DNA of 64,000 bases, taken from positions 62,001-126,000 of the forward strand of contig JAJVIM010000039.1 in the NCBI GenBank assembly GCA_022071955.1, written 5' to 3'. Position numbers and translations under genes: made by a program. The notes beneath the pieces are model-generated. The model was not told where the DNA came from and ran no database searches. It saw only the letters and a program-made list of their open reading frames with translations. Positions 29,414 to 54,659 of the stretch are shown here, piece after piece. The first letter of the stretch is position 1, and every line of letters begins with the position of its first letter. The stretch comes from Anaerolineae bacterium. Its GTDB lineage: Bacteria; Chloroflexota; Anaerolineae; 4572-78; J111.

Positions 29414-29435
29414 ATTTATCACCGGAGGAAATCTT

Positions 29436-34263: not shown

Positions 34264-34516
34264 GGATTTTGCCTGACAATCCCAACTCTTCGCTGCCCCA
34301 TCTCATTGCAGGCACATTTATTATCACCAGCGTCCTGCCACCTCTCAACTCTATTGCAGTTAATGCCCAATCGCCAGCTTTTATTGCCTGGCCATTGTAT
34401 TACTCCTACAACTCACGGTTGCGTTATTTCAACATCCACCTCTGTTTTTAGCAGGGGCGGTGTGTGTTGGTATTGTAATTGTAATTGTAATTCAATAGAA
34501 AAGGAGATTATTGGTT
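34264..34516 (+). other. Long untranslated leader of the WXG100 operon
   Basis: About 240 nt separate the promoter from the first start codon. No convincing gene lies here; short frames have no ribosome binding site. The composition is less GC-rich than the flanks, and repeated GTAATT units occur at 34474-34493 just before the AAGGAG ribosome binding site. No riboswitch was recognised. Confidence 0.5.
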
Positions 34517-34819
34517 ATGACTGATCAAGTACAGGCAGACTACGAGCAGCTCGATGACGTTGCTCGGCGGTTTGACCACCAGTCGCAAGAAATCCAGCAA
34601 ATGATGCAGCAAGTGCGCAACGGCATGCAGCGGCTCCAGAGCGACTGGATTGGTCGCGGCTCAGAGGCATTTTTCAGAGAGATGCAGGGCGAGGTTTTGC
34701 CGGCCGTGCAGCGCTTGCAGCAGGCGCTGGAAGAAGCCAGCCGCGTGACCAAAGACATCGCGCAAACCATGCAGCAGGCTGAAGAAGAGGCCAGTTCGCC
34801 TTTCCGCAGCCACACGTAA
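34517..34819 (+). CDS. WXG100 family secreted protein (100 aa)
   Basis: This protein of exactly 100 residues has the helical hairpin plan of WXG100/ESAT-6 proteins. Helix 1 (about residues 8-40) leads to the turn DWIGRGSEAF with the W-x-G motif, and helix 2 spans about 50-90, with a polar tail ending EEASSPFRSHT. AAGGAGA supports the ATG at 34517. Such proteins are substrates and activators of type VII secretion ATPases. It closely resembles the N-terminal domain of the glycine-rich protein at 47.3 kb (same DWIGRGS turn and similar helix 2). Confidence 0.92.
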   Translation: MTDQVQADYEQLDDVARRFDHQSQEIQQMMQQVRNGMQRLQSDWIGRGSEAFFREMQGEVLPAVQRLQQALEEASRVTKDIAQTMQQAEEEASSPFRSHT

Positions 34820-34857: not shown

Positions 34858-35151
34858 ATGACCGACAAAATAAAACTTGTTTATGAAACGGCTGAAGATA
34901 TGATCCATACTTTTCAGCAGGGGTCGGAGCAACTGGAAAAAACCCTCCAGACGATGCAGGGCGTGGCCGATTCTCTGGAAGGTGGAGCGCTGCTGGGGCG
35001 CGGCGGTGATGCCTTTGCCGACGCGATTCGCAGCAAACTGGTACCGGCTATTGCCCGGCTCGACCACAAATTCAAGGAACTGGCCGGCGATGTCCACAAG
35101 GCCATTGAATACATGCAACAGGCGGACAAAACTTCCGCCGGCAAGTTTTAG
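34858..35151 (+). CDS. WXG100-like protein lacking the tryptophan
   Basis: This 97-residue protein has two long helices around a turn LLGRGGDAFADAI. It lacks the Trp of W-x-G but keeps the G-x-G and aromatic F positions. The C-terminal helix carries the E-Y-M-x-x-A-D spacing reminiscent of the Y-x-x-x-D/E export signal. AAGGAGA precedes it. It lies 38 nt after the first WXG100 gene and is likely a heterodimer partner. Confidence 0.82.
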   Translation: MTDKIKLVYETAEDMIHTFQQGSEQLEKTLQTMQGVADSLEGGALLGRGGDAFADAIRSKLVPAIARLDHKFKELAGDVHKAIEYMQQADKTSAGKF

Positions 35152-35168: not shown

Positions 35169-35519
35169 ATGTTTGGTGCAATTAAACGCGCATTAATTCG
35201 TTTTGCCCGCAAGGTTGTGCAGGGGGTAATGTCTCAGCTAATGCAGCAGCTCAATATTGTGCAGGAACAGGCCATGGCCCCCATGCGCCAGATGATTCAG
35301 CAGGTGATGGGCGGTGTTTGGGTTGGCGACGGCGCTAATGCTTTTGTCGAAGAGGTGTCGAGCCTGATGATCCCCGGCGTGGGTAAAGTGGCGGAACACA
35401 TCACCACGATGCACAAAAACATCCAGCACGCCTGTGACGTGATTGATCAGGCCGATGCCAATGTGCAAAGCAAAGTTAATGGCCTGGCCGATATTTTTGG
35501 CGCAATTTATTCAGGTTAA
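35169..35519 (+). CDS. WXG100-like helical protein
   Basis: This 116-residue protein has the turn VWVGDGANAFVEEV, which has a true W-x-G, flanked by helices with a basic amphipathic N-terminus (IKRALIRFARKVVQGVM). It is slightly longer than the family norm. GAGGAA upstream supports the start. It is the third gene of the operon, 17 nt after the second. Confidence 0.82.
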   Translation: MFGAIKRALIRFARKVVQGVMSQLMQQLNIVQEQAMAPMRQMIQQVMGGVWVGDGANAFVEEVSSLMIPGVGKVAEHITTMHKNIQHACDVIDQADANVQSKVNGLADIFGAIYSG

Positions 35520-35561: not shown

Positions 35562-35858
35562 ATGGCAGATGAAGTTTATATGGAAATTCCCGCTGTACGC
35601 GGTATGGCCAAAAACTTTGGCAACATCAGCGAGATACTGAACGCAGTGGCCAAAGTGCTTGAAGGATTGTCGATGATTCTTAAAACCACCGCATTTATTG
35701 GGTTGGTGGGCGGCTACGCGCTGGCGGCTTTTATTGATATGATCAAGCCTCACATTGAGCAGATGTCTCAAAAATGCCAGGAATTAATGGATGATTTAAA
35801 CAAGTCTGTTGATGCCTACGAGCGCGGCGACGCGCTGGGCGCGACCCGGTTTTATTGA
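35562..35858 (+). CDS. ESX-target-like helical protein
   Basis: This 98-residue protein has no W-x-G. Helix 1 (VRGMAKNFGNISEILNAVAKVL), a hydrophobic glycine-containing middle (TTAFIGLVGGYALAAFI) and helix 2 ending SVDAYERGDALGATRFY resemble EspC/PE-like or WXG-related targets, whose ends carry a Y-x-x-x-D-type signal (YERGD here). AGGAGG stands before the ATG. It ends the four-gene operon before a terminator. Confidence 0.75.
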   Translation: MADEVYMEIPAVRGMAKNFGNISEILNAVAKVLEGLSMILKTTAFIGLVGGYALAAFIDMIKPHIEQMSQKCQELMDDLNKSVDAYERGDALGATRFY

Positions 35859-35938: not shown

Positions 35939-37033
35939 TTACACCACAAAATTGTACAGCGATACCGCCAGCGCCAGCACAAAGGCCACCGACAGCAAAC
36001 CGGCCACAACCAGCATAATGGTGCGGGTATTGGGCCAGCGGCTCGGTTTTTCGGTGGGAATCTGGCCAAAATAATCGAGCAATTGTTTGGCCAGCACCGT
36101 GGCATCAGGCTGGCGACGGGCCGGCTGCGGGTCAACGGCCTGCACAGCAATATCAGCCACCATTTTAACATCTTCAACCCGGGTCATGCGGGCCAGCCGG
36201 TTGCGCTGAATTTCGCGGTACACATCCACATCACTTTGTAATTTGTAATCAATTGCCGGTTCACCGACCAGCAGTTCGTACAGGGTCAGCCCCAGCCCGT
36301 ACACGTCGGTAGCGTAATCCGGCCGGATTTTGGGGGCGTTGATCAGTTCCGGGGCGGTATAGGCCGGCAGCGCGGCAAACGGATACCAGTTGGTATTGAG
36401 GCTGGCCGCGTTGCTGATAAGGCCCAGATCAAACAGCAGCACTCGCGGCACATTGGGTTCGTCATCAAAACGAACCAGCACGCCTTCGGGGCTGAGGCCA
36501 AAATGATACACGCCTTTGCTGTGCAAAAAAGCCAGCGCGTAGGCCAACCCCAGCACAATCCAGCACACGTGGTTAATCCACAACTGCGGGTTTTCGGTGA
36601 TAACGTGGCGCAGCGGCTGCCCTTCGAGGTGTTCAAACAGGTAAAAATAGAGCAGGTGGCCTTGCAGCATAGTTTTGCCGTAGGCATCAATTTTTATCGA
36701 TGTGCCGGTGTACGGGGGCAGCAGCGTGGGTAAATATTTGCTGGTTTTTTTGCTGAGCTGAACATCGCGTAAAAATTCAGCTTCGCGTTTGAGCCGTTCC
36801 TTGTTTTCCGTGCCGGGATGGGCCACTTTGAGATACACCTTTTTCTTTTGGTGCGTGGCCTCGTACAGCACCGACGAGCGCAGCACGATCACCGGCTTGA
36901 TAATCTCGATGTCGCCCACCCACTCGCCGTAGCCCAAAATGCTGGGCGACATTTCCGCCGGGCAGTAGGTTTCCTGACAGTAAAGGTTGTTGTCTGGTGA
37001 GGTGCGTTCGCACAACAGGCACACTTGTTTCAT
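35939..37033 (-). CDS. Zinc-ribbon membrane-anchored pseudokinase (EssB/YukC-like role)
   Basis: This 364-residue protein starts with a four-cysteine ribbon (C5, C8, C19, C24) and a protein-kinase-like domain at about residues 40-320, and ends with a single C-terminal membrane helix (about 338-364). The nucleotide lysine K69 (VYLKVA) and Glu84 are kept, and the DFG position reads DLG (202-204). The catalytic loop HRDLKPEN is HFGLSPEG (H177-F178-G179), so the catalytic Asp is lost. Further kinase marks are YTAPEL, DVYGLGLTLYELLVGEPA and ARRQPDA. EssB of type VIIb systems is also a membrane pseudokinase, which suggests a similar scaffold role; unlike EssB there is no external domain. ATG at 37033 follows GGGGG. 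Confidence 0.85.
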   Translation of the reverse strand: MKQVCLLCERTSPDNNLYCQETYCPAEMSPSILGYGEWVGDIEIIKPVIVLRSSVLYEATHQKKKVYLKVAHPGTENKERLKREAEFLRDVQLSKKTSKYLPTLLPPYTGTSIKIDAYGKTMLQGHLLYFYLFEHLEGQPLRHVITENPQLWINHVCWIVLGLAYALAFLHSKGVYHFGLSPEGVLVRFDDEPNVPRVLLFDLGLISNAASLNTNWYPFAALPAYTAPELINAPKIRPDYATDVYGLGLTLYELLVGEPAIDYKLQSDVDVYREIQRNRLARMTRVEDVKMVADIAVQAVDPQPARRQPDATVLAKQLLDYFGQIPTEKPSRWPNTRTIMLVVAGLLSVAFVLALAVSLYNFVV

Positions 37034-37270: not shown

Positions 37271-37299
37271 CACAATCCACGACAGGAGCAAAAGTTCGT

Positions 37300-40200
37300 A
37301 TGAACGAACCGATTTACATCGACCGCCCGCCGCGCATTCAGCCGGAACTCCCCTTTGACGAAATCGAAATCCCTGCGCCGCCGGAAAAACAGGAAGACGG
37401 CAACGCCCGGCTGGTGCAGGTGGCTCTGCCGCTGATGACCATCGTTGGTTATATTTTGGTGGGGTCGCTGGGCGGCGTGGGCCGCAACCCGCTCTTTATT
37501 TTGCCGATGGCGCTGTCTGTGCTGGCCTCGGTGGCCTATTCGTTTTACAGCTTCCGCAAAGAAAAGCAGAAGCTGGCCGAAATGGCGCAAGCCTATTCGG
37601 ACCGGCTGGTCGAAATGACCAAAGAAATGAATATTTCGCACGATATGCAGCGCCGTTTTTACCGCTATAACTACCCCGACCGGCTGACCACCTTTCGGCT
37701 GGTCAACAGTGCCCGCGTCGAGGCTGAAAAGGCCGAGCGCACCCTCCGCTCCGAGTCGCGGCTGTGGGAGCGCCGCACCGAAGATGACGACTTCGGTGTG
37801 ATCCGGCTGGGGATGGGCACGCTGCCATCAACCGTCACTTACGCGCTGAGTCAGGTTGATAATTACGAAGACCCGCAGGTGCGCGAGGCGCTCAAGCTGC
37901 AGGATGACTCGCAATTTGTCACCGACATCCCGGTCATTATTTCGCTGCGCACGCCGCACGAGGACAAAAAAGAAGAGGACGAAGAAGCCAGCAGCGGCGA
38001 TCAGGAAGAGAAACAAAAAGAGGAGGCCTGGGCCAGCCGCACCCCGGTGACTCACGCGCTGGGCATTGCCGGCGACGCGCAGGCGGTGTACGCCTACGCC
38101 CGCTCGATGCTGGCCCATTACGTGGTTTTTCACGCGCCGGGCGACGCCAAACTGTACGTGCTGGCCGGCGGCCGCAAAGAGTGGGGCTGGACCGAAAACT
38201 TGCCCCACAGCCGCAAAGATGACCAGAGCCAGTACCTCTGCTTTACCGAGGATATCAAAGAAAGCGCCGAAGCCAACTTTTTTGCCGAGGACGAAGAAGG
38301 CGCGCTCGGCCAGTATCTGGAGGGCATCCGCAAAATTTTGGCCCAGCGCAAAATCCGCCTCTCCGAGCGCGATGAAAACGCCAGCGGGGCCGACCCAACT
38401 CTGCCGTTTTTGCTGATGGTGGTGGATTTGCTCGATGCCGGCGGCGACGACTCGCCGCTGAAAGAACTGGAGTCGGATGCGGCCATTTCGATTATGCTGG
38501 AAGAGGGCGCGCAGTTGGGCGCGGCGGTGGTTTTTTTAGTGCCGGAACGGAGCAAAGTGCCCGGCGGCTGTACCGCCGTCATCGAAATTGAGCGCACGAC
38601 CCCGGCCACTAACAGTAAAATTGAGCAGGTGCAAAAGCTCCACTTTCGCTACGCCGAAGTTGGCGTCAACTCGTTCCGCTACGTAGGCCAGGCCGACGCC
38701 GTGGGCCGCCCGGAAGAGATGCTCTTTTTGTCCGGCCAGTTGGCCCAACTCCGCATCCGCGAAGGTTTTGGGGCTAACCTCAACCGGGCTGTGCCGTTTA
38801 TGGATTTGATGGGTTACGGCTCGCTGAAGGAGTTGCACGACGACACCTGGGCCAAGTGGCAGGACAGCATCAAACCCAAATATGGCAACTGGCTGCGCTG
38901 CAAAATCGGGATGATGGCCGGCAACAAGCCGCGGACAATGGTCTTTTCGGCCAAGCGCGATGGCGTGCACGGCATGGTCGCCGGCAGCACCGGCTCCGGT
39001 AAATCCGAGCTGCTCATTTCGCTCATCAGCGGTATGGCCATCACCTACGACCCGACCGTGCTCAATTTTGTGCTGGTTGATTACAAAGGCGGCGGCGCGT
39101 TCAAAGGTTTTGACGAGCTGCCCCACTGCGTTGATATTGTTACCAACCTGGCCGCCGACGGTGTAACCCGCATGTTCACCGCCATCCAATCGGAGATGAT
39201 GCGGCGGCAGGCGCTCAACGTGGAAACCGGCACCAAAAATATTGTCGATTACCGCCAAAAAGGGCTGCACCTCACCCACCACCCCTACCCCTTTTTGTTT
39301 ATCATCATCGATGAATTTGCCGAGATGATTGCCGACCGGGCCGAATTCAAAGGCCAGTTGGAGAGCATCACCCGCGTGGGCCGGGCGCAGGGCGTCTCGC
39401 TGATTTTGGCGGCGCAACGGCCCAGCGGCGTCACCGACCAGATGCGCTCCAACATCAAATTCCGCATCAGCCTGCGGGTGGAAACGCCCGGCGAAAGCCG
39501 CGAAATGCTGCGCCGCTCCGAGGCCGCGTTTCTGCCCAGCGACATCCCCGGCCGCGGCTATTTGCAGGTGGGCAACGATGAAATCGAGCTGATGCAGGTG
39601 GCCTACACCGGCGATAAAGTCATCGACCCCAACCGCGGGCCGCAGGCGCCGGTTATCTGGCCGGAGCGCGGCGACACCTACGACGCGTCCGCCGATCAGG
39701 AGCCGCCCGAACTGTACAAATACATCGTCACCATGCTCGATAAAATGTCTAAAGAGCACGGCATTGAAAAACAGCGCGCCCCGTGGCCCGATTTTCTGCC
39801 CAACCGGCTATCGCTGTCGGAACTGCTGGTCTCGCCGGACCAGACCATCCCGGCCATCACCTCCGCCGAATATCTGGCCGGCGTAGACAAAATTATGCTC
39901 GGGCAGGCCCACGACGAAACGCTGACCCTCAACCCGGCGGTTAACAAGTGGCTCAACGGTGAAAACGGCTGGCTGCCCCGGCTCGATTGGGAAAATTACG
40001 CCATGCGCCCGGTCGTGGGGCTGGTGGATAACCCCTACGCCGCCAAGCAACTGCCGCTGGTCATCGACCTGCCGCGCGGCCACGTAGCCCTGTTCGGCGC
40101 GTCTGGCTGGGGCAAAACATCGTTTATCCGCACGCTGGTGGTCAGTTTGGCCGCCAGCCACTCGCCCAACCACGTCCACATGTACCTGCTTGATTTGGGC

Positions 40201-43200
40201 GGGCGCAACCTGGGCGTGCTCGGCGAGCTGCCGCACGTGGGCGCGGTCATCATCCCCGATGCCGAAGGCTACGAGGAGCGGGTGGAGCAGCTTTTGCGCG
40301 AGCTGGATGACATTGTTGAGCAGCGCAAAACTATCCTCAATAACGCCGGCGTGCCGGACCTGTACAAATACAACGATGCCAACCCCGCCGACCCGCTGCC
40401 GGCGATTCTGGTGGCCATTGACAATTTTGTTGAATTCCGCGAAACGTTTGGCGGCGACGGCGACGCCGATGTGGAAACCGTATTTGATAAATTTGTGGGA
40501 CTGGCCCGGCAGGCCAAGCCCTACGGCATCCATTTTGTGATTACCGCCAACCAGTTGGGCATCCTCTCCAGCCAGTTACAGAGCCTCTTTACCGAGCGGC
40601 TAACGCTGAAGCTGGCCGATCCCACCGAATACCGCACCGTGGTGGGCGGGGCCGTGCCGGACATCGGCGATGTGCCGGGCCGGGGCTACGCCAAAATTGG
40701 CCACCTGCCGCTCAGTTTGCAGATTGCCCAGCCCATCGACCTGCGCCGCGACGGCGGCGAGGCCAACGAAACCCGCGAGTTGGAACAGTACGCCCAGAGC
40801 ATGCAGGAATTTATCGCCAGCAGCGGCTACCAGTACCGCGCTCCGGTGCGGGTGGATGCCCTGCCGCGCTCGATTTTATTCAAACAGATTCTGGCCCGCG
40901 ATTTGGAGCTGGAAATCAACGAATCGTTTTTGCCGGAGTTGAAGCAGCGCGCCGCCCAACGCTGGGCCGATAGCCTCAACCCCGAGCTGGCCGACTGGCT
41001 CAAAGTGACCGTGGGCGTGGTTTCCGGCAACCGGCTGCGCGAAATGCATTTTGAGGCCAAAAAAGATGGCGTCCACGGCATGATCGCCGGCGGCACCGGC
41101 TCCGGTAAATCGGAACTGCTGATGACGCTTATTGTTGGGCTGGCGCTCAATTACGACCCCAGCGTGCTCAATTTTGTGCTGGTCGATTACAAAGGCGGCG
41201 GCGCGTTCCAGCCGTTCCGCGACTTGCCCCACTGCGTTGATATTATCACCAACCTCAACAAATCGGCGGTCAAACGCTTTTTCACGGCCATCAACGCCGA
41301 AATGCAGCGCCGCCAAAAACTCAACGCCGATACCGCCACCAAAGACATTGTGGAGTACCGGGCCAAAGGGCTGCACCTGACCAACGAGCCATACCCGCAC
41401 CTGTACATCATCATCGACGAGTACGCCGAGATGATCACCGACAACCCCGAATTTAAAGACGAACTGGACAGCATCACCCGCGTGGGGCGGGCGCAGGGCG
41501 TCAACCTGCTGCTGGCCTCGCAGCGGCCCACCGGCGTGAGCGATCAAATGCGGGCCAACATCAAATTCCGCATCTGCCTGCGGGTGGAGCAGGTGGACAC
41601 CAGCCGCGAAATGTTGCGCCGCTCCGACGCCGCCTTTCTGCCCAACGGCATGCCCGGCCGCGGCTACTTGCAGGTGGGCAATGAAAACATCGAATTAATT
41701 CAGATGGCCTACACCGGCGAAAATTACGAGTTCGCCGAGGTGCGCGAGGGCGGCCGCCAGCCCAAATTTTACGATGTGGTGGTGGACCTGTGCAACGAAC
41801 TGTTGCAGGGCGAGCGCCCGCGCACGCCGTGGCCGCCCTTCCTGCCCGCCAAAATGACCCTCTCCAGCCGGCTGGTGGAAGCCTATCTGGACAAGGAATA
41901 CGAGCCGCTGCTGAGTTTGGGCCGCCACCTGCAACCCAACTGCCTCAACCCGTTTGTGCAGGACTGGCTCGGCGGCAAAATGGCCTGGCCCGGCGTCAAC
42001 TGGCAGAAAACGGCCATGCGGGCCATCGTCGGCCTGGCCGACGACCCGTACAACGCCCGGCAAATGCCGCTGGTGGTCGATGTGACCAAAGGCCACGTGG
42101 TACTGTTTGGCGCGTCCGGCTGGGGTAAAACCACGTTTATGCGCACGCTGGTGGCCTCGCTGGCGGCTACCCACTCGCCCGCCGAGTTTCACGCCCACGT
42201 GCTGGATTTGGGCGGGCGTAATCTGGAAGTGCTGCGCGCCCTGCCGCAGGTCGGCACCATTATTATGCCGGACGAGCGCGGCTACGAGGAGCGGGTGCAG
42301 CAAATTCTGCGCGAGCTGAACGATATTGTTGACGCCCGCAAGCGCCTGTTCAGCGAGGCCGGCGTCAGTACGCTATACGAGTACAACATCAGCCACCCCG
42401 AAAAGATTGAGCCGGCGATTTTGGTCGTCATCGACAACTTTGCCGAGTTCATTGAAACCTTCGGCGACGAGTCCAAAAAAGACAGCGAGGACAACCAGCT
42501 TGAGGCCTTTATCTTTTTGGTGCGGCAGGCCAAAGCCTACGGCGTCCATTTTGTTATTTCGATTGGCCGGCTCAACGAGCTGTCGAGCAAATTGTACAGC
42601 CTCTTCACCGAGCGGCTAACCCTGCGCCTGTCCGATGGCGGCGACTACCGCTCGATTGTCGGCGGGCACGTGGCCGAAATCGATGAAATTCCGGGCCGGG
42701 GCTACGTCAAAGCCGGCCGCCAGCCGCTCGAATTTCAGGTGGCTTTCCCCACTGGCGCGGTTGACGACCAGGGCCAGCTCAAAGGCGAAATCCCGCAACT
42801 GCGCGAACTGGGCCGGTTGATGCACGAGTTGGGTAAAGACGCCTGGCAGGGCCGCGAACCGCTGCGCATCGACGCGTTGCCCAAGTCGTCCTCGTACCGG
42901 CAGGTGCTGGCCGAACTGTTTGGCATCAGCGCCGAAACCGATTTTTTGGACGGGCTGAAAAACGCCATCGCCGCCAAATGGGCCGACACCGGCTCGGCCA
43001 ACGGCGCGGACTGGCTGGAAGGTGTGCTGGGCATCACCTCCGGCAACCGCAAACGGACGCTGCACCTCAGCGCCAAAACCGATGGCGTGCACGGCATGAT
43101 TGCCGGCGGCACCGGCTCCGGTAAATCGGAGCTGCTGATGACGCTCATCGTTGGGCTGGCGGCCTACCAGTCGCCCGATATTCTCAATTTTGTGCTGGTC

Positions 43201-46095
43201 GATTACAAAGGCGGCGGCGCGTTTGTGCCGTTCCGCAAACTGCCTCACTGCGTCGATATTGTGACCAACCTCAACAAAGCGGCGGTGGCCCGCATGTTCA
43301 CCGCCATCAACGCCGAAATCCGGCGGCGGCAGGCGCTCAACGCCGACACCGGCACCAAAGACATCATCGAATACCGGCGCAAAGGGCTGCACCTCACCGG
43401 TGACGCCTACCCGCACCTGTTTGTCATCATCGATGAGTACGCCGAAATGATTGACGACAACCCCGAATACCGCGCCGAACTGGAAAGCATCACCCGCGTG
43501 GGCCGGGCGCAGGGGGTCAACCTGATTCTGGCCTCGCAGCGGCCCAAAGGTGTCAGCGACCAGATGCGGGCCAACATCAAATTGCGCATCTGCCTGCGGG
43601 TGGAGCAGGTAGACACCAGCCGCGAAATGCTGCGCGCTCCGGACGCCGCCTTTTTGCCCAACGGCATGCCCGGCCGCGGCTATATTCAGGTGGGCAACGA
43701 AAATCTGGAATTGATTCAGGTGTCGTACACCGGCGAAAACCAGCCCGATGACCGCGAAGCGGCGGTGCTGTGGCCGGACCGTCCCGCCGCGGACGCCCCC
43801 GCCGGCGAGGATGTGCCCAAACTGTTCGACGCGGTGGTCATGCTCACCTCCGAACTGGTCGGCGGGCAAATGGCCCCCAAACCGTGGCCCAACTTTTTGC
43901 CCGCGCAGTTCAGCCTGCAATCGCCCATCCGCGACTCGCAGAAGAACCGCGATTTTGTGCTGGTGCCGACCGTGACCGACTGGCTCAACGGCGACACCGA
44001 CGGCCTGTGGCCCGGTGTTGACTGGCGTAAAGGCGCGCTGCGGCCGGTAATGGGCCTGCTCGACAACCCCGCCGAAGCCCAGCAAATCCCGCTGGCCTTT
44101 GATTTGAGCCGCACCCACCTGATTGTGATGGGCGATTCGGGCTGGGGCAAAACGATGTTTTTGCGCTCGCTGCTGGTCAGTTTGGCCGCCACCCACTCGC
44201 CCAATGAGTTTCATGCCTACGTCCTCGATTTGGGCGGGCGCAACTTCCGCAGTTTGGAAGAGCTGCCGCACGTTGGCGCGGTTATCTACGCCGATGAGGA
44301 AACCTACGAAGAGCGGCTGCAGCGGCTGCTGGCCAAACTGGAAAAGCTGGTCGATGAACGCCAGCAAATTCTGAGCAACGCCGATGCCAACAGCCTGTTT
44401 GATTTCAACGAGCGCAACCCGGAGCAGGCGCTGCCGGCGGTGCTGGTCCTCATCGACAACTTTGCCGAGTTGCAGGAAAATTACGAGCTGCTGGTGGAAG
44501 GCACGGTGCTGCCGCTGGTGCGCCGCTCGCTGAGTATGGGCGTCACCTTTGTGATCACGGCCAACGTGCCCACCAACATGCCCAGCAAACTGTACAACCT
44601 GTTCGGCGAGCGCATCACCTTTAAACAATCCAACCACGACCGGCTGACCGATATTGTGGGCCGCGGCGCGATTGAAATGGACGATATTCCGGGGCGAGGC
44701 TACATCCGGGTGGGGCGGCGGCCGCTGCTGTTCCACGCCGCGCTGCCGCTGGGGCTGTTCCACGCCGAAGACGGCCGCGACACCCTGCCCGAAGCCGACG
44801 AAATCCGGCTGATGGCCCGCACCATGCGCGAGCAGGTTGAGGCCCGCGGCTGGCCGCATCAGCCTGACCCCGTCGCCACGTTGCCGGAGTTGGTGCCGCT
44901 GGCAGCCATGCTCGACGCCGCCGGCCCGGTGCATCCCAGGCGTGTCCAGGCCGTGCTGGGGCAGGATGCCAGCCTGCGCCCGGCGCTGTTTGATTTGCAG
45001 CGGATGGGACCGCACTTTGCCGTGGTCGGCCCGCCGCTGTCGGGCAAATCGACGGTGCTGTACAACTGGGTGCTGTCGCTGGCGTGGCGTTACGCGCCGC
45101 GGCAGGTGAAGCTGGTGCTGGTCGATTTTCAGCGCAAATTTGTGGAGTACGATGGCCAGCGCCGGCTCGATGAACTGCCGCACGTGCTGGCTGCCATCTC
45201 CGAGGCCGAGCAAATGGAAGGGCTGCTGGCCAACCTCAAAACCGAGTGCGAAGCGATGGCCGCGGCCGGCGATTACGAGTTATTTGTGATTATTGATAAT
45301 TACGATGACATGGCCGAGGAGATTGAGCGGCTGCGCGATTTGCCGCGCGATCTGGCCGGGCTGGCTCGCCGCTACGGGCGCGACGGGCTGCACTTTATCA
45401 TTGGCGGCACGCTCGACAGCGGCATCAGCGAGCTGCGCCGCCGGGTGCAGGCGGCCAATTACGGCCTCGGCTTGCGCACGGCGCAGGCGGTGGAAACGCT
45501 GCGGGTGGGCCGCACCCCCGCCGAAGTGCGCAACAAAGAGCTGCAAATTGGCCGCGGCTTCATTGTAAAATCCGGCCAGCCGACCATGATTCAGGTGGCC
45601 ACGCCGTACCAGGGCAAAGGCATCCCTGTGGCCGCCGCTGCCGGCGAGGACGACGAAGAGCCGGTCGGTATTGCGCTGGATTATTGGGTGGAAAAAATCT
45701 GCACCCGCTACCCGGATCAACGCACGGTCTGGGCCGCGCCGGTGGAAGGGGCGCTGGCCGAGGCCGGAACGGGCGGGGCCGCGCCGCCGCCCAGCGGCAA
45801 AGCCACGCGGTTGATGTCGCTGTTGCAGCGCGGGTTGCAGCAGGAAATGGAGCATCTGCGGGAAGGTAACGGCGCCGGCGAACTGGTCACGGCCAAGCTG
45901 GTGCAGCTCGACCCGGCCAGTTGGGGCAACGAGGACAAGCTGATGACGCTGCTCAAAGAATTGTGGGTGAGCCAAAAGCGGGCCAGCGGTCTGCCCGATG
46001 AAATGATCCAGCTCACGCTTGATGTGATGGACGATGAATCGATTTTGCTGGATGTGGAGGCGGCCCTGACGGCCCCGGAAGAAAGCGAAAAATAG
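37300..46095 (+). CDS. Giant seven-ATPase EccC/EssC-like FtsK/SpoIIIE motor
   Basis: This 2931-residue protein has two N-terminal membrane segments (about 38-59 and 64-84), a linker domain, then seven P-loop FtsK/SpoIIIE-type domains. Walker A sites start at residues 562, 933, 1264, 1604, 1936, 2278 and 2577: GSTGSGKS or GGTGSGKS in domains 1, 3 and 5, GASGWGKT or GDSGWGKT in 2, 4 and 6, and GPPLSGKS in 7. Walker B has the catalytic DE only in domains 1, 3 and 5 (671/672, 1373/1374, 2045/2046); domains 2, 4, 6 and 7 have DN. Domains 1, 3 and 5 also keep AQRP/SQRP sensor motifs and long shared stretches (FVLVDYKGGGAF). So a catalytic/degenerate pair is present three times, plus a last domain. 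Usual EccC/EssC proteins have three or four P-loop domains in 1200-1500 residues. It is membrane-bound and presumably drives WXG100 export. The start at 37300 has CAGGAGC upstream. DNA translocation is unlikely: there is no FtsK gamma domain and the neighbours are WXG100 genes. Confidence 0.95.
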   Translation: MNEPIYIDRPPRIQPELPFDEIEIPAPPEKQEDGNARLVQVALPLMTIVGYILVGSLGGVGRNPLFILPMALSVLASVAYSFYSFRKEKQKLAEMAQAYSDRLVEMTKEMNISHDMQRRFYRYNYPDRLTTFRLVNSARVEAEKAERTLRSESRLWERRTEDDDFGVIRLGMGTLPSTVTYALSQVDNYEDPQVREALKLQDDSQFVTDIPVIISLRTPHEDKKEEDEEASSGDQEEKQKEEAWASRTPVTHALGIAGDAQAVYAYARSMLAHYVVFHAPGDAKLYVLAGGRKEWGWTENLPHSRKDDQSQYLCFTEDIKESAEANFFAEDEEGALGQYLEGIRKILAQRKIRLSERDENASGADPTLPFLLMVVDLLDAGGDDSPLKELESDAAISIMLEEGAQLGAAVVFLVPERSKVPGGCTAVIEIERTTPATNSKIEQVQKLHFRYAEVGVNSFRYVGQADAVGRPEEMLFLSGQLAQLRIREGFGANLNRAVPFMDLMGYGSLKELHDDTWAKWQDSIKPKYGNWLRCKIGMMAGNKPRTMVFSAKRDGVHGMVAGSTGSGKSELLISLISGMAITYDPTVLNFVLVDYKGGGAFKGFDELPHCVDIVTNLAADGVTRMFTAIQSEMMRRQALNVETGTKNIVDYRQKGLHLTHHPYPFLFIIIDEFAEMIADRAEFKGQLESITRVGRAQGVSLILAAQRPSGVTDQMRSNIKFRISLRVETPGESREMLRRSEAAFLPSDIPGRGYLQVGNDEIELMQVAYTGDKVIDPNRGPQAPVIWPERGDTYDASADQEPPELYKYIVTMLDKMSKEHGIEKQRAPWPDFLPNRLSLSELLVSPDQTIPAITSAEYLAGVDKIMLGQAHDETLTLNPAVNKWLNGENGWLPRLDWENYAMRPVVGLVDNPYAAKQLPLVIDLPRGHVALFGASGWGKTSFIRTLVVSLAASHSPNHVHMYLLDLGGRNLGVLGELPHVGAVIIPDAEGYEERVEQLLRELDDIVEQRKTILNNAGVPDLYKYNDANPADPLPAILVAIDNFVEFRETFGGDGDADVETVFDKFVGLARQAKPYGIHFVITANQLGILSSQLQSLFTERLTLKLADPTEYRTVVGGAVPDIGDVPGRGYAKIGHLPLSLQIAQPIDLRRDGGEANETRELEQYAQSMQEFIASSGYQYRAPVRVDALPRSILFKQILARDLELEINESFLPELKQRAAQRWADSLNPELADWLKVTVGVVSGNRLREMHFEAKKDGVHGMIAGGTGSGKSELLMTLIVGLALNYDPSVLNFVLVDYKGGGAFQPFRDLPHCVDIITNLNKSAVKRFFTAINAEMQRRQKLNADTATKDIVEYRAKGLHLTNEPYPHLYIIIDEYAEMITDNPEFKDELDSITRVGRAQGVNLLLASQRPTGVSDQMRANIKFRICLRVEQVDTSREMLRRSDAAFLPNGMPGRGYLQVGNENIELIQMAYTGENYEFAEVREGGRQPKFYDVVVDLCNELLQGERPRTPWPPFLPAKMTLSSRLVEAYLDKEYEPLLSLGRHLQPNCLNPFVQDWLGGKMAWPGVNWQKTAMRAIVGLADDPYNARQMPLVVDVTKGHVVLFGASGWGKTTFMRTLVASLAATHSPAEFHAHVLDLGGRNLEVLRALPQVGTIIMPDERGYEERVQQILRELNDIVDARKRLFSEAGVSTLYEYNISHPEKIEPAILVVIDNFAEFIETFGDESKKDSEDNQLEAFIFLVRQAKAYGVHFVISIGRLNELSSKLYSLFTERLTLRLSDGGDYRSIVGGHVAEIDEIPGRGYVKAGRQPLEFQVAFPTGAVDDQGQLKGEIPQLRELGRLMHELGKDAWQGREPLRIDALPKSSSYRQVLAELFGISAETDFLDGLKNAIAAKWADTGSANGADWLEGVLGITSGNRKRTLHLSAKTDGVHGMIAGGTGSGKSELLMTLIVGLAAYQSPDILNFVLVDYKGGGAFVPFRKLPHCVDIVTNLNKAAVARMFTAINAEIRRRQALNADTGTKDIIEYRRKGLHLTGDAYPHLFVIIDEYAEMIDDNPEYRAELESITRVGRAQGVNLILASQRPKGVSDQMRANIKLRICLRVEQVDTSREMLRAPDAAFLPNGMPGRGYIQVGNENLELIQVSYTGENQPDDREAAVLWPDRPAADAPAGEDVPKLFDAVVMLTSELVGGQMAPKPWPNFLPAQFSLQSPIRDSQKNRDFVLVPTVTDWLNGDTDGLWPGVDWRKGALRPVMGLLDNPAEAQQIPLAFDLSRTHLIVMGDSGWGKTMFLRSLLVSLAATHSPNEFHAYVLDLGGRNFRSLEELPHVGAVIYADEETYEERLQRLLAKLEKLVDERQQILSNADANSLFDFNERNPEQALPAVLVLIDNFAELQENYELLVEGTVLPLVRRSLSMGVTFVITANVPTNMPSKLYNLFGERITFKQSNHDRLTDIVGRGAIEMDDIPGRGYIRVGRRPLLFHAALPLGLFHAEDGRDTLPEADEIRLMARTMREQVEARGWPHQPDPVATLPELVPLAAMLDAAGPVHPRRVQAVLGQDASLRPALFDLQRMGPHFAVVGPPLSGKSTVLYNWVLSLAWRYAPRQVKLVLVDFQRKFVEYDGQRRLDELPHVLAAISEAEQMEGLLANLKTECEAMAAAGDYELFVIIDNYDDMAEEIERLRDLPRDLAGLARRYGRDGLHFIIGGTLDSGISELRRRVQAANYGLGLRTAQAVETLRVGRTPAEVRNKELQIGRGFIVKSGQPTMIQVATPYQGKGIPVAAAAGEDDEEPVGIALDYWVEKICTRYPDQRTVWAAPVEGALAEAGTGGAAPPPSGKATRLMSLLQRGLQQEMEHLREGNGAGELVTAKLVQLDPASWGNEDKLMTLLKELWVSQKRASGLPDEMIQLTLDVMDDESILLDVEAALTAPEESEK

Positions 46096-46108
46096 AAGTA
46101 ACTGTATA

Positions 46109-46252: not shown

Positions 46253-46272
46253 AAAATAAAGGAGATTAACCG

Positions 46273-46923
46273 ATGAGTTCCAACCCATCCCGGCTCGATC
46301 TGCGAGTTGATGTTCTGGACAAGAAAGACCAGCGCGCGCTGGCGCTGGCCAACCTGACCACTACCGAATTTGTCGAAGCCATTCTGCGTGAGTTCCGCGA
46401 GCTGGAATATCTGGGCGATGTGCCCGCCGATTACCAGCTTCTCAAAGCCGAGGATAACGCGCCGCTGGAGGCGCAAAGCCAGTTGCAGCAGCAAGTGGCC
46501 AGCAACGGCCGGTTGCTGCTGGTAGAGAACAAACCACCGCTGCCCTCCGGCACGCGCCGGCCCAGCCACGATGTTTACCTGCGCGATTTGACCAGCGGCA
46601 AGGTGTACAAGCTCAACTGGCAGCCGGCGGTCATCGGCCGGCCCGACAAAAACCAGCCCCACGATGACTGGTTGGCGGTCAATCTGGAACCGTTTCAGGC
46701 CGGGCTGCGTGTGTCGCGGCGGCAGGCCATGATCACCGAGCAGGACGGTCGTTTCTTTATCGAGAGCCTGTCGCGCAACCCAACGGCGCTCAAAAAAGAG
46801 AACGGCGACACCATCGAGGTGGGCGAGCAAAAACAGTCGCTCGCGCCGGGCGACGTCATCTTTTTGGAACGGAGCAACATTTCGCTCAAATTCATTGTGC
46901 GGGATGAAAAGCCGCAGGAGTGA
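46273..46923 (+). CDS. Putative YukD/EsaB-like domain fused to FHA domain
   Basis: This is a 216-residue cytoplasmic protein. Residues about 8-85 have the length and pattern of a ubiquitin-like fold (LDLRVDVLDKKDQRALALAN, helix TTTEFVEAILREF, then YQLLKAEDNAPLE and GRLLLVE) as in YukD/EsaB, a small component of type VIIb systems. Residues about 110-210 form an FHA domain with AVIGRPDKNQ, the conserved VSRRQAMI and FFIESLSRNPT. FHA binds phosphothreonine peptides. AAAGGAGA precedes the ATG. The fusion of both parts in one chain would replace the FHA head found at the N-terminus of EssC in Firmicutes. The ubiquitin-like part is inferred from pattern only. Confidence 0.85.
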   Translation: MSSNPSRLDLRVDVLDKKDQRALALANLTTTEFVEAILREFRELEYLGDVPADYQLLKAEDNAPLEAQSQLQQQVASNGRLLLVENKPPLPSGTRRPSHDVYLRDLTSGKVYKLNWQPAVIGRPDKNQPHDDWLAVNLEPFQAGLRVSRRQAMITEQDGRFFIESLSRNPTALKKENGDTIEVGEQKQSLAPGDVIFLERSNISLKFIVRDEKPQE

Positions 46924-47299: not shown

Positions 47300-48538
47300 A
47301 TGGCCGATATTGTCCAGATTAATCACGAAGTGCTGGAAACCATCGCCGGCAAATTTACCCACGAGTCCGAGGACGTGGCGAATATGGTGCAGGCCGTGCA
47401 AAACGCCATGAACCGGCTCAAAAGCGATTGGATTGGGCGTGGCTCCGATGCCTTTTTTAAGGAAATGGAAGGCGAAATCCTGCCGGCGCTGGTGCGGCTG
47501 GTGGATGCGCTGGCCCAGGCCGGCGCGGTAACCAAAGAAATCAATCAGATGATGCAGCAGGCCGACGAAGAAGCCTCGTCACCGTTTAAAGACAGCAGCC
47601 AGGCAGGCGGCGGCGCGGGCGTATTTGGTGGCGGCGGCGCGGGCGCGTTCGGTGGGGGCGGTGGCGCGGCCGGCGGCGGTGGGGGCGCGGGCGCGCTGGG
47701 CGGAATGCTCGGCAGGCTGGGCGCTTCGGTATTTAACAACCCCGGTATGCTGGGCAGCCAATTGGGCAACGCGCTCGGTAACAATTTTTTTGGCGGCAAT
47801 TTGTTTGGCGATGGTTCGGTGATGCCGGGCGGCGGCATGTTTGGCGATGGCTCCGTATCGCCCAACGATTACGGCATTCCCCAAAACTGGCTGTCCGGCG
47901 TCAAGGATTCGCTGCAAGGGTTTATGCAGGATAACTACAACGATTACGGCATCCCCAAGGATTGGCTGGCCGGGGTAAAAGAAGCCTTTGGCGAGCAGCC
48001 GGCCGACAGCCAGCCCGGCCAGGATTCCGCACCGGCCGACAGCGGCGGCGGGAGTTCCGGCGGCGGGGGGGGTGGCGGCGGCGAAGAACAGAAACAGGAC
48101 AGCGGTGGTTCCGGCGGCGGTTCCGGCGGGGGTGGTTCGCCGCCGGAAAGCACCACGCCTACCGAGCCAGGCATGCCCGCCAGTTTTGGTAGCGGCGGTG
48201 GGGGCGGGGGCGCTGCAGAATTTAGCAGCCCCTTCTCCGGTCGCGGCTCGTCCGGCGGCGGCTTTTCCGGCGGCGGTGGCGGCAGCGGCGAAGCCGCGCC
48301 CGCGGCGGCCGACCGGCTGCGCTATCAGCCTTTTGGCGGCGTCATCGGCGGCGGGCCGGGCGGTGCTGCGCCGGGCGGTGGCGGGCCGGGCAGTCATTTT
48401 GGCGGCGGCGGAGGTGGCGGCGGCCAGCAGGCTGGCGGCCCCGGCCAGGCTGGTTTTTTGCCCATCGGCCTGGCGGCGGCCAGCCCATTTTTAGCGCTGC
48501 TGGGTAAAGCCATCAAAAAGAAATCCGGCAATGACTAA
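47300..48538 (+). CDS. WXG100 protein with long glycine-rich tail
   Basis: This 412-residue protein has a WXG100 domain at its N-terminus (about 1-98), with turn DWIGRGSDAFFKEM and end EEASSPFK, very similar to the 100-residue protein at 34.5 kb. A glycine-rich tail follows. It contains two copies of NDYGIPxxWLxGVK (about residues 188 and 214), charged glycine stretches, and a hydrophobic end GFLPIGLAAASPFLALLG before KKKSGND. WXG100 domains fused to long C-terminal regions are known for LXG and polymorphic toxins; here the tail looks structural rather than enzymatic, perhaps surface-displayed or anchored. GAGGAGTGT supports the ATG. Confidence 0.88.
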   Translation: MADIVQINHEVLETIAGKFTHESEDVANMVQAVQNAMNRLKSDWIGRGSDAFFKEMEGEILPALVRLVDALAQAGAVTKEINQMMQQADEEASSPFKDSSQAGGGAGVFGGGGAGAFGGGGGAAGGGGGAGALGGMLGRLGASVFNNPGMLGSQLGNALGNNFFGGNLFGDGSVMPGGGMFGDGSVSPNDYGIPQNWLSGVKDSLQGFMQDNYNDYGIPKDWLAGVKEAFGEQPADSQPGQDSAPADSGGGSSGGGGGGGGEEQKQDSGGSGGGSGGGGSPPESTTPTEPGMPASFGSGGGGGGAAEFSSPFSGRGSSGGGFSGGGGGSGEAAPAAADRLRYQPFGGVIGGGPGGAAPGGGGPGSHFGGGGGGGGQQAGGPGQAGFLPIGLAAASPFLALLGKAIKKKSGND

Positions 48539-50445: not shown

Positions 50446-52650
50446 ATGTTGAGTAAAAAGGTACTGAAACTGGTGGTGATCCTGGCCTGTTTGGCGGTGC
50501 TGTGGCCGGCGGCGGCAGCGGCGCAGGAGCCGGCCGCGCGAGTCATTGTGATTTACCCCGCCGCCGAACCCCAGGCCGACGGCATGGCTTTGAGCGTTTT
50601 TTTCACCATCACCGATGAAAGCGGCCGGCCGCTGTCCCGGCCCGGCATCGACACGGTGGAAATCCAGATGCTGGAGGGCAACACCACGCCGGTACCGGCC
50701 GCCTATTCCGAGGCCAACACCCCGTTTTACATTGCCCTGCTGCTCGATGCCAGCGGCAGTATGGCCAACGTGATGCCGGCCGTGCGCGAGGCGGCCCAGG
50801 CGGCCATCGACAATGCGCCGACTAACGCTCGTGTGGCCGTGTACAAATTCAACGACCTGAGCATTGATCAGGAACTGCGCCCCATCGAACCATTTACCGA
50901 TGATATGGTGCTGGTTAAAGGTAGCATCAACGCTGTTCAGGCCGACCCCAATGCGCCCACCTGTCTGTACAACGCCCTTTACAACGGCATCGAGCAGTTA
51001 GACGTGGCCACCACTCAGCCCCAGGAACGGCAGGCTATCATCCTGTTTACCGATGGCAAAGACGAGCGGGCCGATGGTTCGCCATGCAGCCAGCGCAAAT
51101 ATGATGATGTGATTAACCGGGCCGTGCGCGATCAGCCCATCACCCCCATTCACACCATTGGCCTGTGCGCCGATGCCAGTTGCAGCAATATCAAACGCGA
51201 AGAGCTGCGCGGCATGGCCAAAGAAACCTCCGCCTTTGCGGCTATCGGCACCAAAGAGAGTTTGGGCCAGCTTTTTGGCGAAATTATGGACGGCCTCAAC
51301 AGCCAGTTGGTGGCGCGAGCCACGGTGTTTCCCCGGCAGGGCGATAACCAGGCTGTGCTCAAGGTGAAGTTGCGCGACAGCGACCGCCAACTGACCACCA
51401 CCTTCAATTTTCAGTCTGACCGTGATTACGCCCCACCACCGCCGCCGGTCACCGCCCAGATTGGCAGCATTGTTTACGATGCGGCCAACGATGTTTACAA
51501 GCTGGCGCTGAGCGTAACCAGCCCGGACACCCTTTCAAAGGTGGTGGTTGAGGTGTGGGACGAAAAAGGCGGCACGCAGGTGCCGCCGGCTCAGGAATTT
51601 GAAAACCCGCAAACCACCCTCCAGTTTGAACGCGATTCCACGGGTCTGGTTTCCGGCCGGGATTACAGCTTTCGGGTGAAGGCCGTTGATAAAAACGGTT
51701 ATCTGGTAACCGATGCCGAAGGCCAGAACATCCTCGACAAAAAAGAGTTTGTGTACGAACCACCGCAAGTCGATGTGATCAAGTTCAATATCCGTTCGGT
51801 GCAGGCCAATTTTAAAGACAGCCGTTTGGTCATCGATTTGGATGTGCCCGATGCCAGCAAAGTGAATAGCTACGAAGGTTTTATTGTTGACGAAGAAACC
51901 GGCGCGGGTGTATTTGAATTTCCGCCCACCCTGTTCAACGGGGCCCAAATTGTGGCCGATTTGCCGCCAGGTATTCGCCAAATTCCCGAAACCCGCGGCT
52001 ACCGGCTGACCCTGTTTTTAACCGATAAAGACGGCCGCCGGTTGCAGGCCGATCCGTACCAATTCAAAGCCGTTCCGCCGCCGCCGCCCGGCCTGCTGGC
52101 CCGGGTTTGGTCGGTGTTGCAGCTTCCGGCGGTGCTGGTGAGCATTTTTGTGATTATTTTGAGCGTGGTGGTGCTGGTGATTTATTGGAACCGGCCCGCC
52201 CGCAAAGAGTCGCTGCCGACGCCGATGCCTCGCCCGCCGGTAGACCACACCATCATCAGCAGCCCCGCCGCCAGCGCCGAAATGGCCCGGCTACGACAGC
52301 AGGCGCAATCGCCGGCTGTGCCCCCGCCGCCCCCGCCGCCGGCCCGGCTGCGGCTGCAAGTGATGCAAACGCCGGTGGCCGTGCCGGAAATGAACAAAGT
52401 GATCGCTGTTTTTCCGTGTGTGATTGGCCGCAGCGGCTGCGACTTTAATTTCCCCGGCGACCAGCACATCTCTCGCCAGCACGCCGAAATTACCCGGCAG
52501 GGCAGCACCTTTTACATCACCGATCTGGACAGCCGCAACGGCACGTTTATCGGCGAAACCCGCCTGCCGCCGCGCACGCCCACGCCGTTGCCCGGCGCAG
52601 CCGTAGTCCGGCTGGGCCGTCAAACTCAAATAAAGGTTGAGCCGCAATGA
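50446..52650 (+). CDS. VWA-TM-FHA receptor-like protein 1
   Basis: This 734-residue protein has a signal peptide (LVVILACLAVLWPAAAAAQ). The extracytoplasmic VWA domain spans about residues 90-290, with a perfect MIDAS LLLDASGSM and AIILFTDGKDE, followed by beta-sandwich regions. A membrane helix lies at about 553-580 (LVSIFVIILSVVVLVIYW). After a proline-rich linker a cytoplasmic FHA domain ends the chain (VIGRSGCDFNF, HISRQHAEI, DLDSRNGTFI). The topology therefore joins an outside metal-dependent binding domain to an inside phosphothreonine reader. GAGGAGAGG precedes the ATG. It overlaps the next gene by 4 nt. Confidence 0.9.
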   Translation: MLSKKVLKLVVILACLAVLWPAAAAAQEPAARVIVIYPAAEPQADGMALSVFFTITDESGRPLSRPGIDTVEIQMLEGNTTPVPAAYSEANTPFYIALLLDASGSMANVMPAVREAAQAAIDNAPTNARVAVYKFNDLSIDQELRPIEPFTDDMVLVKGSINAVQADPNAPTCLYNALYNGIEQLDVATTQPQERQAIILFTDGKDERADGSPCSQRKYDDVINRAVRDQPITPIHTIGLCADASCSNIKREELRGMAKETSAFAAIGTKESLGQLFGEIMDGLNSQLVARATVFPRQGDNQAVLKVKLRDSDRQLTTTFNFQSDRDYAPPPPPVTAQIGSIVYDAANDVYKLALSVTSPDTLSKVVVEVWDEKGGTQVPPAQEFENPQTTLQFERDSTGLVSGRDYSFRVKAVDKNGYLVTDAEGQNILDKKEFVYEPPQVDVIKFNIRSVQANFKDSRLVIDLDVPDASKVNSYEGFIVDEETGAGVFEFPPTLFNGAQIVADLPPGIRQIPETRGYRLTLFLTDKDGRRLQADPYQFKAVPPPPPGLLARVWSVLQLPAVLVSIFVIILSVVVLVIYWNRPARKESLPTPMPRPPVDHTIISSPAASAEMARLRQQAQSPAVPPPPPPPARLRLQVMQTPVAVPEMNKVIAVFPCVIGRSGCDFNFPGDQHISRQHAEITRQGSTFYITDLDSRNGTFIGETRLPPRTPTPLPGAAVVRLGRQTQIKVEPQ

Positions 52651-54659
52651 GCCGATTCCTGCGATTCTTTGTTCCGCTGCTGCTGTTGGCGCTGGTAGTT
52701 TTGCCGCCGGCCCGCGCTCAAACCGGCGCGCCGTCGCTGTCCATTACCCACATCGCTGCCCAGGCGCAAAACACCGGCGAAGTGCGGGTGTCGGCGCTGG
52801 TGTCCGTGCTGGACGAGGCCGGCCAGCCGATGAACGGCCTGACCGCCGACGAATTTTCTGTGTCGGAAAACAATACTCCGGTTGAGGCCCAACGGCTCAC
52901 CGTTTCCCGCGCCGACGAACCGTTGACCGTGGCCCTGCTCATTGATACCAGCAACGGCATGGCCAAACCCGGCCCGGACCGGGTGCGGGCCATCGACGCG
53001 GCCAAAGATGCGGCCATCGCTTTTATTGAGCGGTTGGGCGACGACGATCAGGTGGCCGTGTACGAGTTCAACGAGCGGGCCAGCCGGGTGCAGGATTTTA
53101 CCTACGACCACAACCTGGCCATCGACCAGGGGGTAGTTAAGCTGGATGCCCGCGAGGCCGCCGGCGTTTGTTTGAATGACGCTCTGCTGCAACTGCTCGA
53201 CCAACTGGCCGCCCAATCCGACACGCCGCGGGCGATTGTGGCCATCGGCGGCGCGCCCGGCGGCGATGGCTGCGGCGGGGCCGTGGTGGATGATGTGCTG
53301 GCCAGCGCCACTACCGTGGGCAACGCCGTGCCGCTGTTTAGCGCGGTTTTTGGCAAAACCCTGCCGCAGGATGACCTGCTGCGGCTGGGCCAGCGCAGCG
53401 GCGGGCGCTCGCTGTTGGGGGCCGACTCGACCAGCCTGGCGCAAAATGTGGCCTCAATCTCCGAGCAGTTGCACAGCCAGTACCAGCTCAGTTATGCCAC
53501 CCAGGCTGCGCCGGGGCTGGCCACAGTCATCATTTTTGAGAACGAGCTGCAACTGTCGGACCGCCGCCAGATTCCAGTGCCGGCCGCGGCTGAACCAACG
53601 CCCACGCCTCCGCCGCAGTTTGCCATTAGCCTGGCGGTTAATCAGCCCAGCGGCGACACGCTGGAAGTGAGCGTAGAGGTGCCCGACGGCGTGACGCTGG
53701 CCCAAACCGAGTTGTTTGTTAATGGCGAATCGGTGCAAAAAGCCACCGCGCCGCCGCTGGACAAATTTACGCTCAATGTCAATGATTTGGGGTCGGGCAA
53801 GCACACGCTGCGGGTTGAGGCGGTTGATACCAACCAGGTTACTGCCTCGGCGGAAGTGGAGTTAATGCTGACCATCCCGCCCACGCCCACCCCCGCGCCC
53901 ACGGCCACGCCGCAACCGGCTGCTGCCGCCGCCCCGGCCCAACCCGCCGAGCCGGAAGCTGCCCCGGTGCGAACCATGCTGCCGCTGGCGTTGATTTGCG
54001 TGGGAGCCGTTTTGCTGCTGGCGTTGGGTGGGGTGATGGTTTACCTGCTGATGTCCCGCTCCAAACGGCCGCCCGCGCCGGCGGCAGTTCCGGCTGCGCC
54101 GGTTAGCCCGCCGCCGCAGCCGGCATCTGCCCCGCGCCCGGCAACCGCTCCACCGCCGCCCACTATCGCCGCCGACGACGATTGGGCCGACCGGACGCTG
54201 CTGGCCCCGGCTGCGCCCGGTGCGCCGGCTGCGGCCAGCGATGGCCCGGCCCGGCTGGTAGTAACGGCTTATCAGCCGCTGGTGCCGCAGCCGGAGTTCA
54301 GCCTGTTTCAGCCCGAAACCCGGCTGGGCCGTAATACGGCCAAAGAAGCCGCCAACGACATCCCCATCGGCGATCAGGAAGTGTCGCGCTCGCACAGTTT
54401 GATCGTTCGCCGCGGCCAGCAGTATTTTATTCAGGACCTCAACTCGACCACCGGCACCCAGGTTAACGGGCAGCGACTGCGGGCCGGCCAGGAGGTCGCG
54501 CTGCAGCACGGCGATGAAATTGCGGTTGGGCCGCGGGTTAAATTCCGGTTTGAGTCGGCTTCGTCGGTGGATAACTCGGAGACTCTGCTGGATATGGATA
54601 TTGATCAGCTCAAATCAAAATTTGGGGCCGAAGACCCCTTCCGGACTCAATATGACTGA
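52647..54659 (+). CDS. VWA-TM-FHA receptor-like protein 2
   Basis: This 670-residue paralogue of the previous protein has a signal peptide (FLRFFVPLLLLALVVLPPARA). Its VWA domain is degenerate at the MIDAS (LLIDTSNGM), so metal binding may be impaired. A beta-rich region and a TPTPAPTATPQP stalk follow, with a membrane helix at about 445-470. A proline/alanine linker and a C-terminal FHA domain complete it (TRLGRNTAKEAAND, VSRSHSLIV, DLNSTTGTQV). Its 3' end overlaps the next ATG by 8 nt. Confidence 0.9.
   Translation: MSRFLRFFVPLLLLALVVLPPARAQTGAPSLSITHIAAQAQNTGEVRVSALVSVLDEAGQPMNGLTADEFSVSENNTPVEAQRLTVSRADEPLTVALLIDTSNGMAKPGPDRVRAIDAAKDAAIAFIERLGDDDQVAVYEFNERASRVQDFTYDHNLAIDQGVVKLDAREAAGVCLNDALLQLLDQLAAQSDTPRAIVAIGGAPGGDGCGGAVVDDVLASATTVGNAVPLFSAVFGKTLPQDDLLRLGQRSGGRSLLGADSTSLAQNVASISEQLHSQYQLSYATQAAPGLATVIIFENELQLSDRRQIPVPAAAEPTPTPPPQFAISLAVNQPSGDTLEVSVEVPDGVTLAQTELFVNGESVQKATAPPLDKFTLNVNDLGSGKHTLRVEAVDTNQVTASAEVELMLTIPPTPTPAPTATPQPAAAAAPAQPAEPEAAPVRTMLPLALICVGAVLLLALGGVMVYLLMSRSKRPPAPAAVPAAPVSPPPQPASAPRPATAPPPPTIAADDDWADRTLLAPAAPGAPAAASDGPARLVVTAYQPLVPQPEFSLFQPETRLGRNTAKEAANDIPIGDQEVSRSHSLIVRRGQQYFIQDLNSTTGTQVNGQRLRAGQEVALQHGDEIAVGPRVKFRFESASSVDNSETLLDMDIDQLKSKFGAEDPFRTQYD

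Follow-up and report, generated by a model that had tools for sequence, protein, structure and literature searches.

Why should a single EccC/EssC-type T7SS motor carry seven P-loop domains, when three (four with D0) are usual? The question is raised by a long gene in the window, by which we mean the whole analysed stretch of 64,000 nucleotides. The ORF 37258-46095 on the forward strand has no internal stop and is already open from TTG 37258, but a good AGGAG box 5′ of ATG 37300 makes the latter the likely start. Counted from the TTG, the Walker A motifs lie at residues 576, 947, 1278, 1618, 1950, 2292 and 2591; subtraction of 14 residues gives 562, 933, 1264, 1604, 1936, 2278 and 2577 from ATG 37300, which agrees in every number with the seven motifs of the original prediction. 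Pfam FtsK_SpoIIIE was matched in seven stretches (E = 3e-173). Among the NCBIfam models TIGR03928 (EssC) was the best and both EccC halves matched as well; the whole-protein score is inflated by the repeats, single stretches scoring below the EssC cut-off. That the protein is the EccC/EssC-type motor of a Chloroflexota T7SS, with its D1-D2 pair triplicated in frame, is very nearly certain. Its parts are as follows.

37300..46095, + strand: seven-P-loop EccC/EssC-type T7SS motor gene (2931 aa from ATG 37300)
37411..37548, + strand: two predicted transmembrane (TM) helices, hydropathy peaks at residues 52 and 79
38053..38877, + strand: D0-like region lacking a Walker A motif, predicted from the EccCa model (TIGR03924, matching from residue 266)
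38893..39600, + strand: P-loop domain 1, D1 type, catalytic (GSTGSGKS / DEF)
40006..40713, + strand: P-loop domain 2, D2 type, degenerate Walker B (GASGWGKT / DNF)
40999..41706, + strand: P-loop domain 3, D1 type, catalytic (GGTGSGKS / DEY)
42019..42726, + strand: P-loop domain 4, D2 type (DNF)
43015..43722, + strand: P-loop domain 5, D1 type, catalytic (GGTGSGKS / DEY)
44041..44748, + strand: P-loop domain 6, D2 type (DNF)
44938..45645, + strand: P-loop domain 7, D3 type (GPPLSGKS / DNY)

No FHA domain was detected on the motor among the best 25 of 34 Pfam families, and the stretch before the first TM helix is only about 50 residues long. Two long frames run antisense to the motor (42616-45213, − strand, 865 aa; 45280-46830, − strand, 516 aa) and are probably by-products of composition and codon bias.

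The classes of the domains were read from two trees, one comprising 192 domains, the other including outgroups from Streptomyces, Tsukamurella, Limosilactobacillus and Agathobacter. In both, the odd-numbered domains 1, 3 and 5 group with canonical D1 and the even-numbered ones (2, 4, 6) with canonical D2; the last, domain 7, joins D3. Going by this clustering, the order of the motor is D1-D2-D1-D2-D1-D2-D3, i.e. the canonical pair of a catalytic D1 and a degenerate D2 three times over, followed by one D3. In Walker B, domains 1, 3 and 5 have DE and domains 2, 4, 6 and 7 have DN. The original prediction was right in seeing DE and DN alternate along an EccC/EssC-like motor and in counting three sites as catalytic and four as degenerate; it missed the cause, a D1-D2 pair repeated three times. 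The motifs alternate because domains 1/3/5 are all D1, domains 2/4/6 all D2 and domain 7 is D3.

AlphaFold2 was run on domains 1-3 (pLDDT 86.7, pTM 0.76) and 5-7 (pLDDT 88.4, pTM 0.78) and yielded confident, EccC-like models, for both of which Foldseek gave Thermomonospora curvata EccC (4NH0) as top match. Superposed on 4NH0, domains 5-7 reached a TM score of 0.78 on the target (5.1 A) and domains 1-3 one of 0.68 (rmsd 8.4 A). The better superposition of domains 5-7 would be expected if these were the true D1-D2-D3 end, with domain 3 standing roughly at the place of D3 in the other model; a D1, as modelled, can occupy the position of D3 in a bead-like chain. The superposition of domains 1-3 is loose, and beyond domain 2 the packing may therefore be different.

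Concerning the history of the copies, mixture-model trees unite domains 3 and 5 (99/99) as well as domains 2 and 4 (99/93) as sisters. Read literally, they would make a D2-D1 unit the latest duplication, D1-[D2-D1]-[D2-D1]-D2-D3. The linker motifs fit such a unit: PWPxFLP is present at every D1-D2 junction of the motor, and both D2-D1 junctions have an ALP motif resembling the one in the D2-D3 linker and a W..P..WL..G stretch like that preceding the first D1. In the trees, domain copies cluster by position, orthologues across genomes together, and not by genome, which argues against an ongoing homogenisation of the copies by gene conversion. The DNA of D1 copies 3 and 5 is 84% alike. Between 40999-41706 and 43015-43722 dS is 0.44, compared to about 0.7-0.8 for orthologous domains of related genera, and the amino-acid difference between these copies is similar in several genomes. 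These values suggest either occasional homogenisation of silent sites with selection keeping the copies apart, or strong codon bias.

The architecture is found well beyond the window. Two other genera of the same family have colinear seven-motif frames of 2937 and 2934 aa (82 and 79% identity). When 84,980 species of bacteria and archaea were scanned, with one genome for each, 79 loci emerged; 26 of them, the window gene not counted, are full-length seven-domain genes of 2874-3064 aa. Loci L039 and L046 are near-duplicates, leaving 25 distinct seven-domain loci, and L061 and L066 are apparently the same genes as those of the two other family genera (G006, G007). The seven-domain loci include four Herpetosiphon species, one of them as the finished genome of the cultured Herpetosiphon aurantiacus DSM 785 (CP000875.1), and occur also in Oscillochloris, Viridilinea, Chloroheliaceae and Caldilineaceae. 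All are Chloroflexota save one record labelled Melainabacteria, a near-duplicate of a Chloroflexi locus. At loci cut by contig ends (e.g. L045 and L050 of Ardenticatenaceae) only part of the domains is visible. Locus L054 of a Promineifilum sp. (9929-17374) shows six P-loop domains, three D1-D2 pairs and no D3, in a frame that stops at the contig edge. Among 400 genomes sampled over the phylum, 73 had an EccC-type D1, in frames of 2874-2993 aa or of at most 1809 aa. In one long-frame genome, apparently H. aurantiacus, the seven-domain gene is the sole match at that threshold; other sampled genomes have a three-domain-sized paralogue alongside. Five-domain intermediates were absent from both the 79 loci and the 400 phylum genomes, frame lengths in this search being 587-1809 aa or 2874-2993 aa, and plasmid records had only ordinary EccC/EssC lengths among those listed or inspected. 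As judged from these genomes, the seven-domain form is no artefact but an ancient one, conserved across many Chloroflexota.

The motor is embedded in a T7SS locus with the following genes.

34511..34819, + strand: esxA-like WXG100 protein (Pfam E 2e-15; TIGR03930 above cut-off)
34858..35151, + strand: esxB-like WXG100 protein (Pfam WXG100 E 1.4e-7)
35169..35519, + strand: esxC-like diverged WXG100 protein (Pfam 4e-4; TIGR03930 2e-6, below its cut-off)
35562..35858, + strand: esxD-like hairpin protein (EspC/WXG100-like), YxxxD = YERGD (Pfam T7SS_ESX_EspC E 7e-6)
35939..37033, − strand: probable membrane pseudokinase lacking the HRD-type Asp, with one visible TM segment at the C-terminus
46273..46923, + strand: YukD-like ubiquitin-fold and FHA protein, directly 3′ of the motor
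47300..48538, + strand: long protein with N-terminal WXG100 domain, likely substrate (Pfam E 5.5e-11)
50446..52650, + strand: VWA-FHA membrane protein
52647..54659, + strand: second VWA-FHA protein
55398..57089, + strand: PP2C-type phosphatase

Three WXG100 genes of decreasing match strength and then the EspC-like gene precede the motor, the kinase-like gene lying on the opposite strand. The kinase-like membrane protein keeps the Lys and the DLG/DFG Asp; it is a probable pseudokinase because none of the motif variants listed for 63 aligned rows has the HRD-type Asp. EssB/YukC is the membrane pseudokinase of T7SSb, and the protein is possibly its counterpart, although its best PDB matches are active PknB-type kinases and not EssB. 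The N-terminal domain of the YukD-FHA protein matches Pfam YukD at E ≤ 1 in 13 of 22 relatives (best 1.8e-5; window protein 0.077), and its PDB profile matches are weak ubiquitin-fold ones. No mention of such a YukD-like and FHA fusion was found in the T7SS literature consulted. Further 5′ of the locus (23845-30467), genes for DUF58, BatA/VWA, VWA-glutamine-amidotransferase-like and MoxR ATPase proteins stand in a row. A GC-rich, cloverleaf-like repeat lies on both sides of the motor gene (37137-37271 and about 46110-46255), with hairpins of its core also at 11597, 23578 and 50253. The upstream copy (37137-37271) has a folding z of −11.2 and contains a 20-bp palindrome. For the core, CCCCTCCCC-loop-GGGGAGGGG, 118 copies were counted in the genome and 5 in the window (0 expected by chance); its loops vary and its inner stem pairs vary in a complementary way. 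The repeat looks like a dispersed intergenic palindromic element.

Orthologues of this locus in other Chloroflexota (e.g. L070, L078, L096) have the same order of four Esx genes, pseudokinase, motor and YukD-FHA around a three-domain EccC (one D1-D2 pair, then D3; 1.4-1.8 thousand aa). Homologues of the FHA gene and of the pseudokinase are present at 27 of 27 seven-domain loci, those of EsxA, EsxB, EsxC and EsxD at 26, 25, 23 and 22. The 46 other loci, nearly all three-domain and several cut by contig ends, have FHA in 38 cases, the pseudokinase in 35, EsxA in 32, EsxB in 31, EsxC in 27 and EsxD in 28. Since the same neighbours accompany three- and seven-domain forms, gene content indicates that one and the same T7SS locus occurs with a short or a long motor. 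We do not treat the number of P-loops as defining EccC/EssC, because orthologues in the same locus have three. A one-to-one pairing of the four Esx proteins with the four degenerate domains was rejected, as three-domain loci have the same four Esx genes. In a tree of N-terminus, D1 and D3 the three-domain form falls inside the seven-domain group, with long branches meeting at the root, and mixture-model domain-class trees fit either order (AU p = 0.51 for a single seven-domain clade). The three-domain forms in this locus may be ancestral or reduced, both orders being compatible with the trees.

In sequence and fold the closest solved structures are those of T7SSa EccC (T. curvata EccC, PDB 4NH0; mycobacterial EccC5, PDB 7NP7). 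Two TM helices, a D0-like region, a D1 with catalytic DE, degenerate D2/D3 and WXG100 neighbours are shared with T7SSa EccC, which has one D1-D2 pair instead of three. EccB, EccD, EccE and MycP were not found among the neighbouring genes scanned. T7SSb EssC/YukB (B. subtilis, S. aureus) is represented by the best NCBIfam model, TIGR03928, and the YukD-like domain and membrane pseudokinase beside the motor recall EsaB/YukD and EssB/YukC of T7SSb. In contrast to EssC/YukB there are three D1-D2 pairs, and the two N-terminal FHA domains of T7SSb motors were not found, FHA being on the next gene. Like T7SSc-T7SSj, some of which have kinases and FHA-less motors, the system lies outside the two classical T7SS types (PMC11217815). 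T7SSc-T7SSj have been described only in Bacillota and Actinomycetota, and their motors have four NTPase domains counting D0, as have EccC and EssC (PMC11217815), compared to seven P-loop domains here. By these comparisons the motor belongs to a known family, within which its domain arrangement is new; no report of a seven-ATPase EccC was found in the open-access literature, to which the search was confined (subscription papers lay outside it).

The catalytic DE is kept by each D1 copy in all 21 genomes; for DN in the degenerate copies (D2, D3) the count is 19-20 of 21 for each. Between related genomes dN/dS is 0.03-0.26 across all seven domains and as a rule lowest in the D1 copies, the middle one often being the most constrained of all; these ratios indicate that all seven domains are under purifying selection. 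The TM/D0 part is no more diverged between three- and seven-domain forms than other regions, and the N-terminal part of solved EccC relatives forms a six-fold pore.

The explanation that we favour, at a probability of about 0.5, is that the triplicated D1-D2 motor forms a hexamer with stacked tiers; for the serial-tier mechanism taken by itself the odds are likewise roughly even. Six chains would still assemble via the N-terminal TM/D0 part, as in EccC, and the extra D1-D2 modules would lengthen the stack along the channel tier by tier, so that three D1 rings follow one another. The D1 rings would hydrolyse ATP and pass folded Esx/WXG100 substrate onward; the D2 and D3 rings, with ATP bound, would take up linkers or substrate signals and act as gates for the adjacent D1. 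More grip and power or more regulatory checkpoints would be the expected gain, with no new function. Six chains with added tiers are the least costly reading because each chain has one TM/D0 part, which is unremarkably conserved. EccC and EssC are hexamers, for which stacked rings of ATPase domains have been proposed (PMC6954902, PMC10765036). Nevertheless, the region beyond D0 is flexible in canonical motors (PMC10765036), and given this flexibility tiers may not form stably even there. The extra tiers would not be required for secretion, because three-domain orthologues serve the same locus.

Measured over the window gene and the three closest of the relatives tested, dN between D2 copies (0.31-0.47) is far larger than between D1 copies (0.14-0.26), as would be expected for a constant engine with diverging adaptor surfaces. 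The same values speak for a mainly regulatory role, in which one D1 ring would do most of the work and the extra modules would chiefly add divergent D2 pockets checking several substrates; indeed, D2/D3 vary with substrates in EssC (PMC10765036). We regard this as rather unlikely, as all three D1 keep their catalytic residues and are under the strongest constraint, often most so in the middle copy. Furthermore, the number of Esx genes does not track that of D2 domains, the same four being present in three-domain loci.

Still less probable is a pseudo-oligomer, in which the three D1 of one chain would share a ring, two chains would complete a hexameric D1 ring and covalent linkage would fix the firing order. 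The catalytic motifs kept in all three D1 and the invariant residues common to copies 1 and 3 would permit action in trans, and the signatures, which differ by position (GST/DEF for copy 1, GGT/DEY for copies 3 and 5), would fit fixed unlike neighbours. However, such a ring would have just two TM/D0 parts, although this part keeps its usual form and builds a six-fold pore in relatives, the N-terminus is not remodelled relative to three-domain orthologues, and D2 plus linkers of about 100 residues separate successive D1 copies. Nothing was found in favour of the proposal in the original prediction that a pseudo-oligomer replaces hexamerisation: the single TM/D0 part is without special remodelling and the surrounding locus is unchanged. 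A hexameric assembly, its three catalytic D1 tiers arranged in series, seems to us the likelier alternative. An assembly artefact, i.e. a collapsed or false tandem duplication or a frameshift fusion of separate genes, has next to no chance despite the 84% DNA likeness of copies 3 and 5 and a motor gene split over contigs in one genome (G003), as the 26 further full-length loci in independent records, the finished genome of a cultured organism among them, have the same architecture and their copies cluster by position, not by genome.

The stacked-tier hexamer touches on general questions of T7SS: whether D1, D2 and D3 are stacked as rings, which of them hydrolyse ATP in transport, and what role the degenerate ones have. 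There is an even chance that three catalytic and four degenerate rings are strung covalently in series, or that a single chain makes a ring with fixed subunit order; if true, either arrangement would amount to a secretion motor of several stages, for which no precedent among T7SS motors has been described. Chloroflexota offer a natural experiment, having the same locus with one or three D1-D2 modules. In Herpetosiphon aurantiacus, which is sequenced and cultured and apparently has the seven-domain form as its sole strong EccC-type match, stoichiometry, ATP use and dispensability of the modules are testable. For the family, the finding means that such motors can lengthen in evolution by whole D1-D2 steps.
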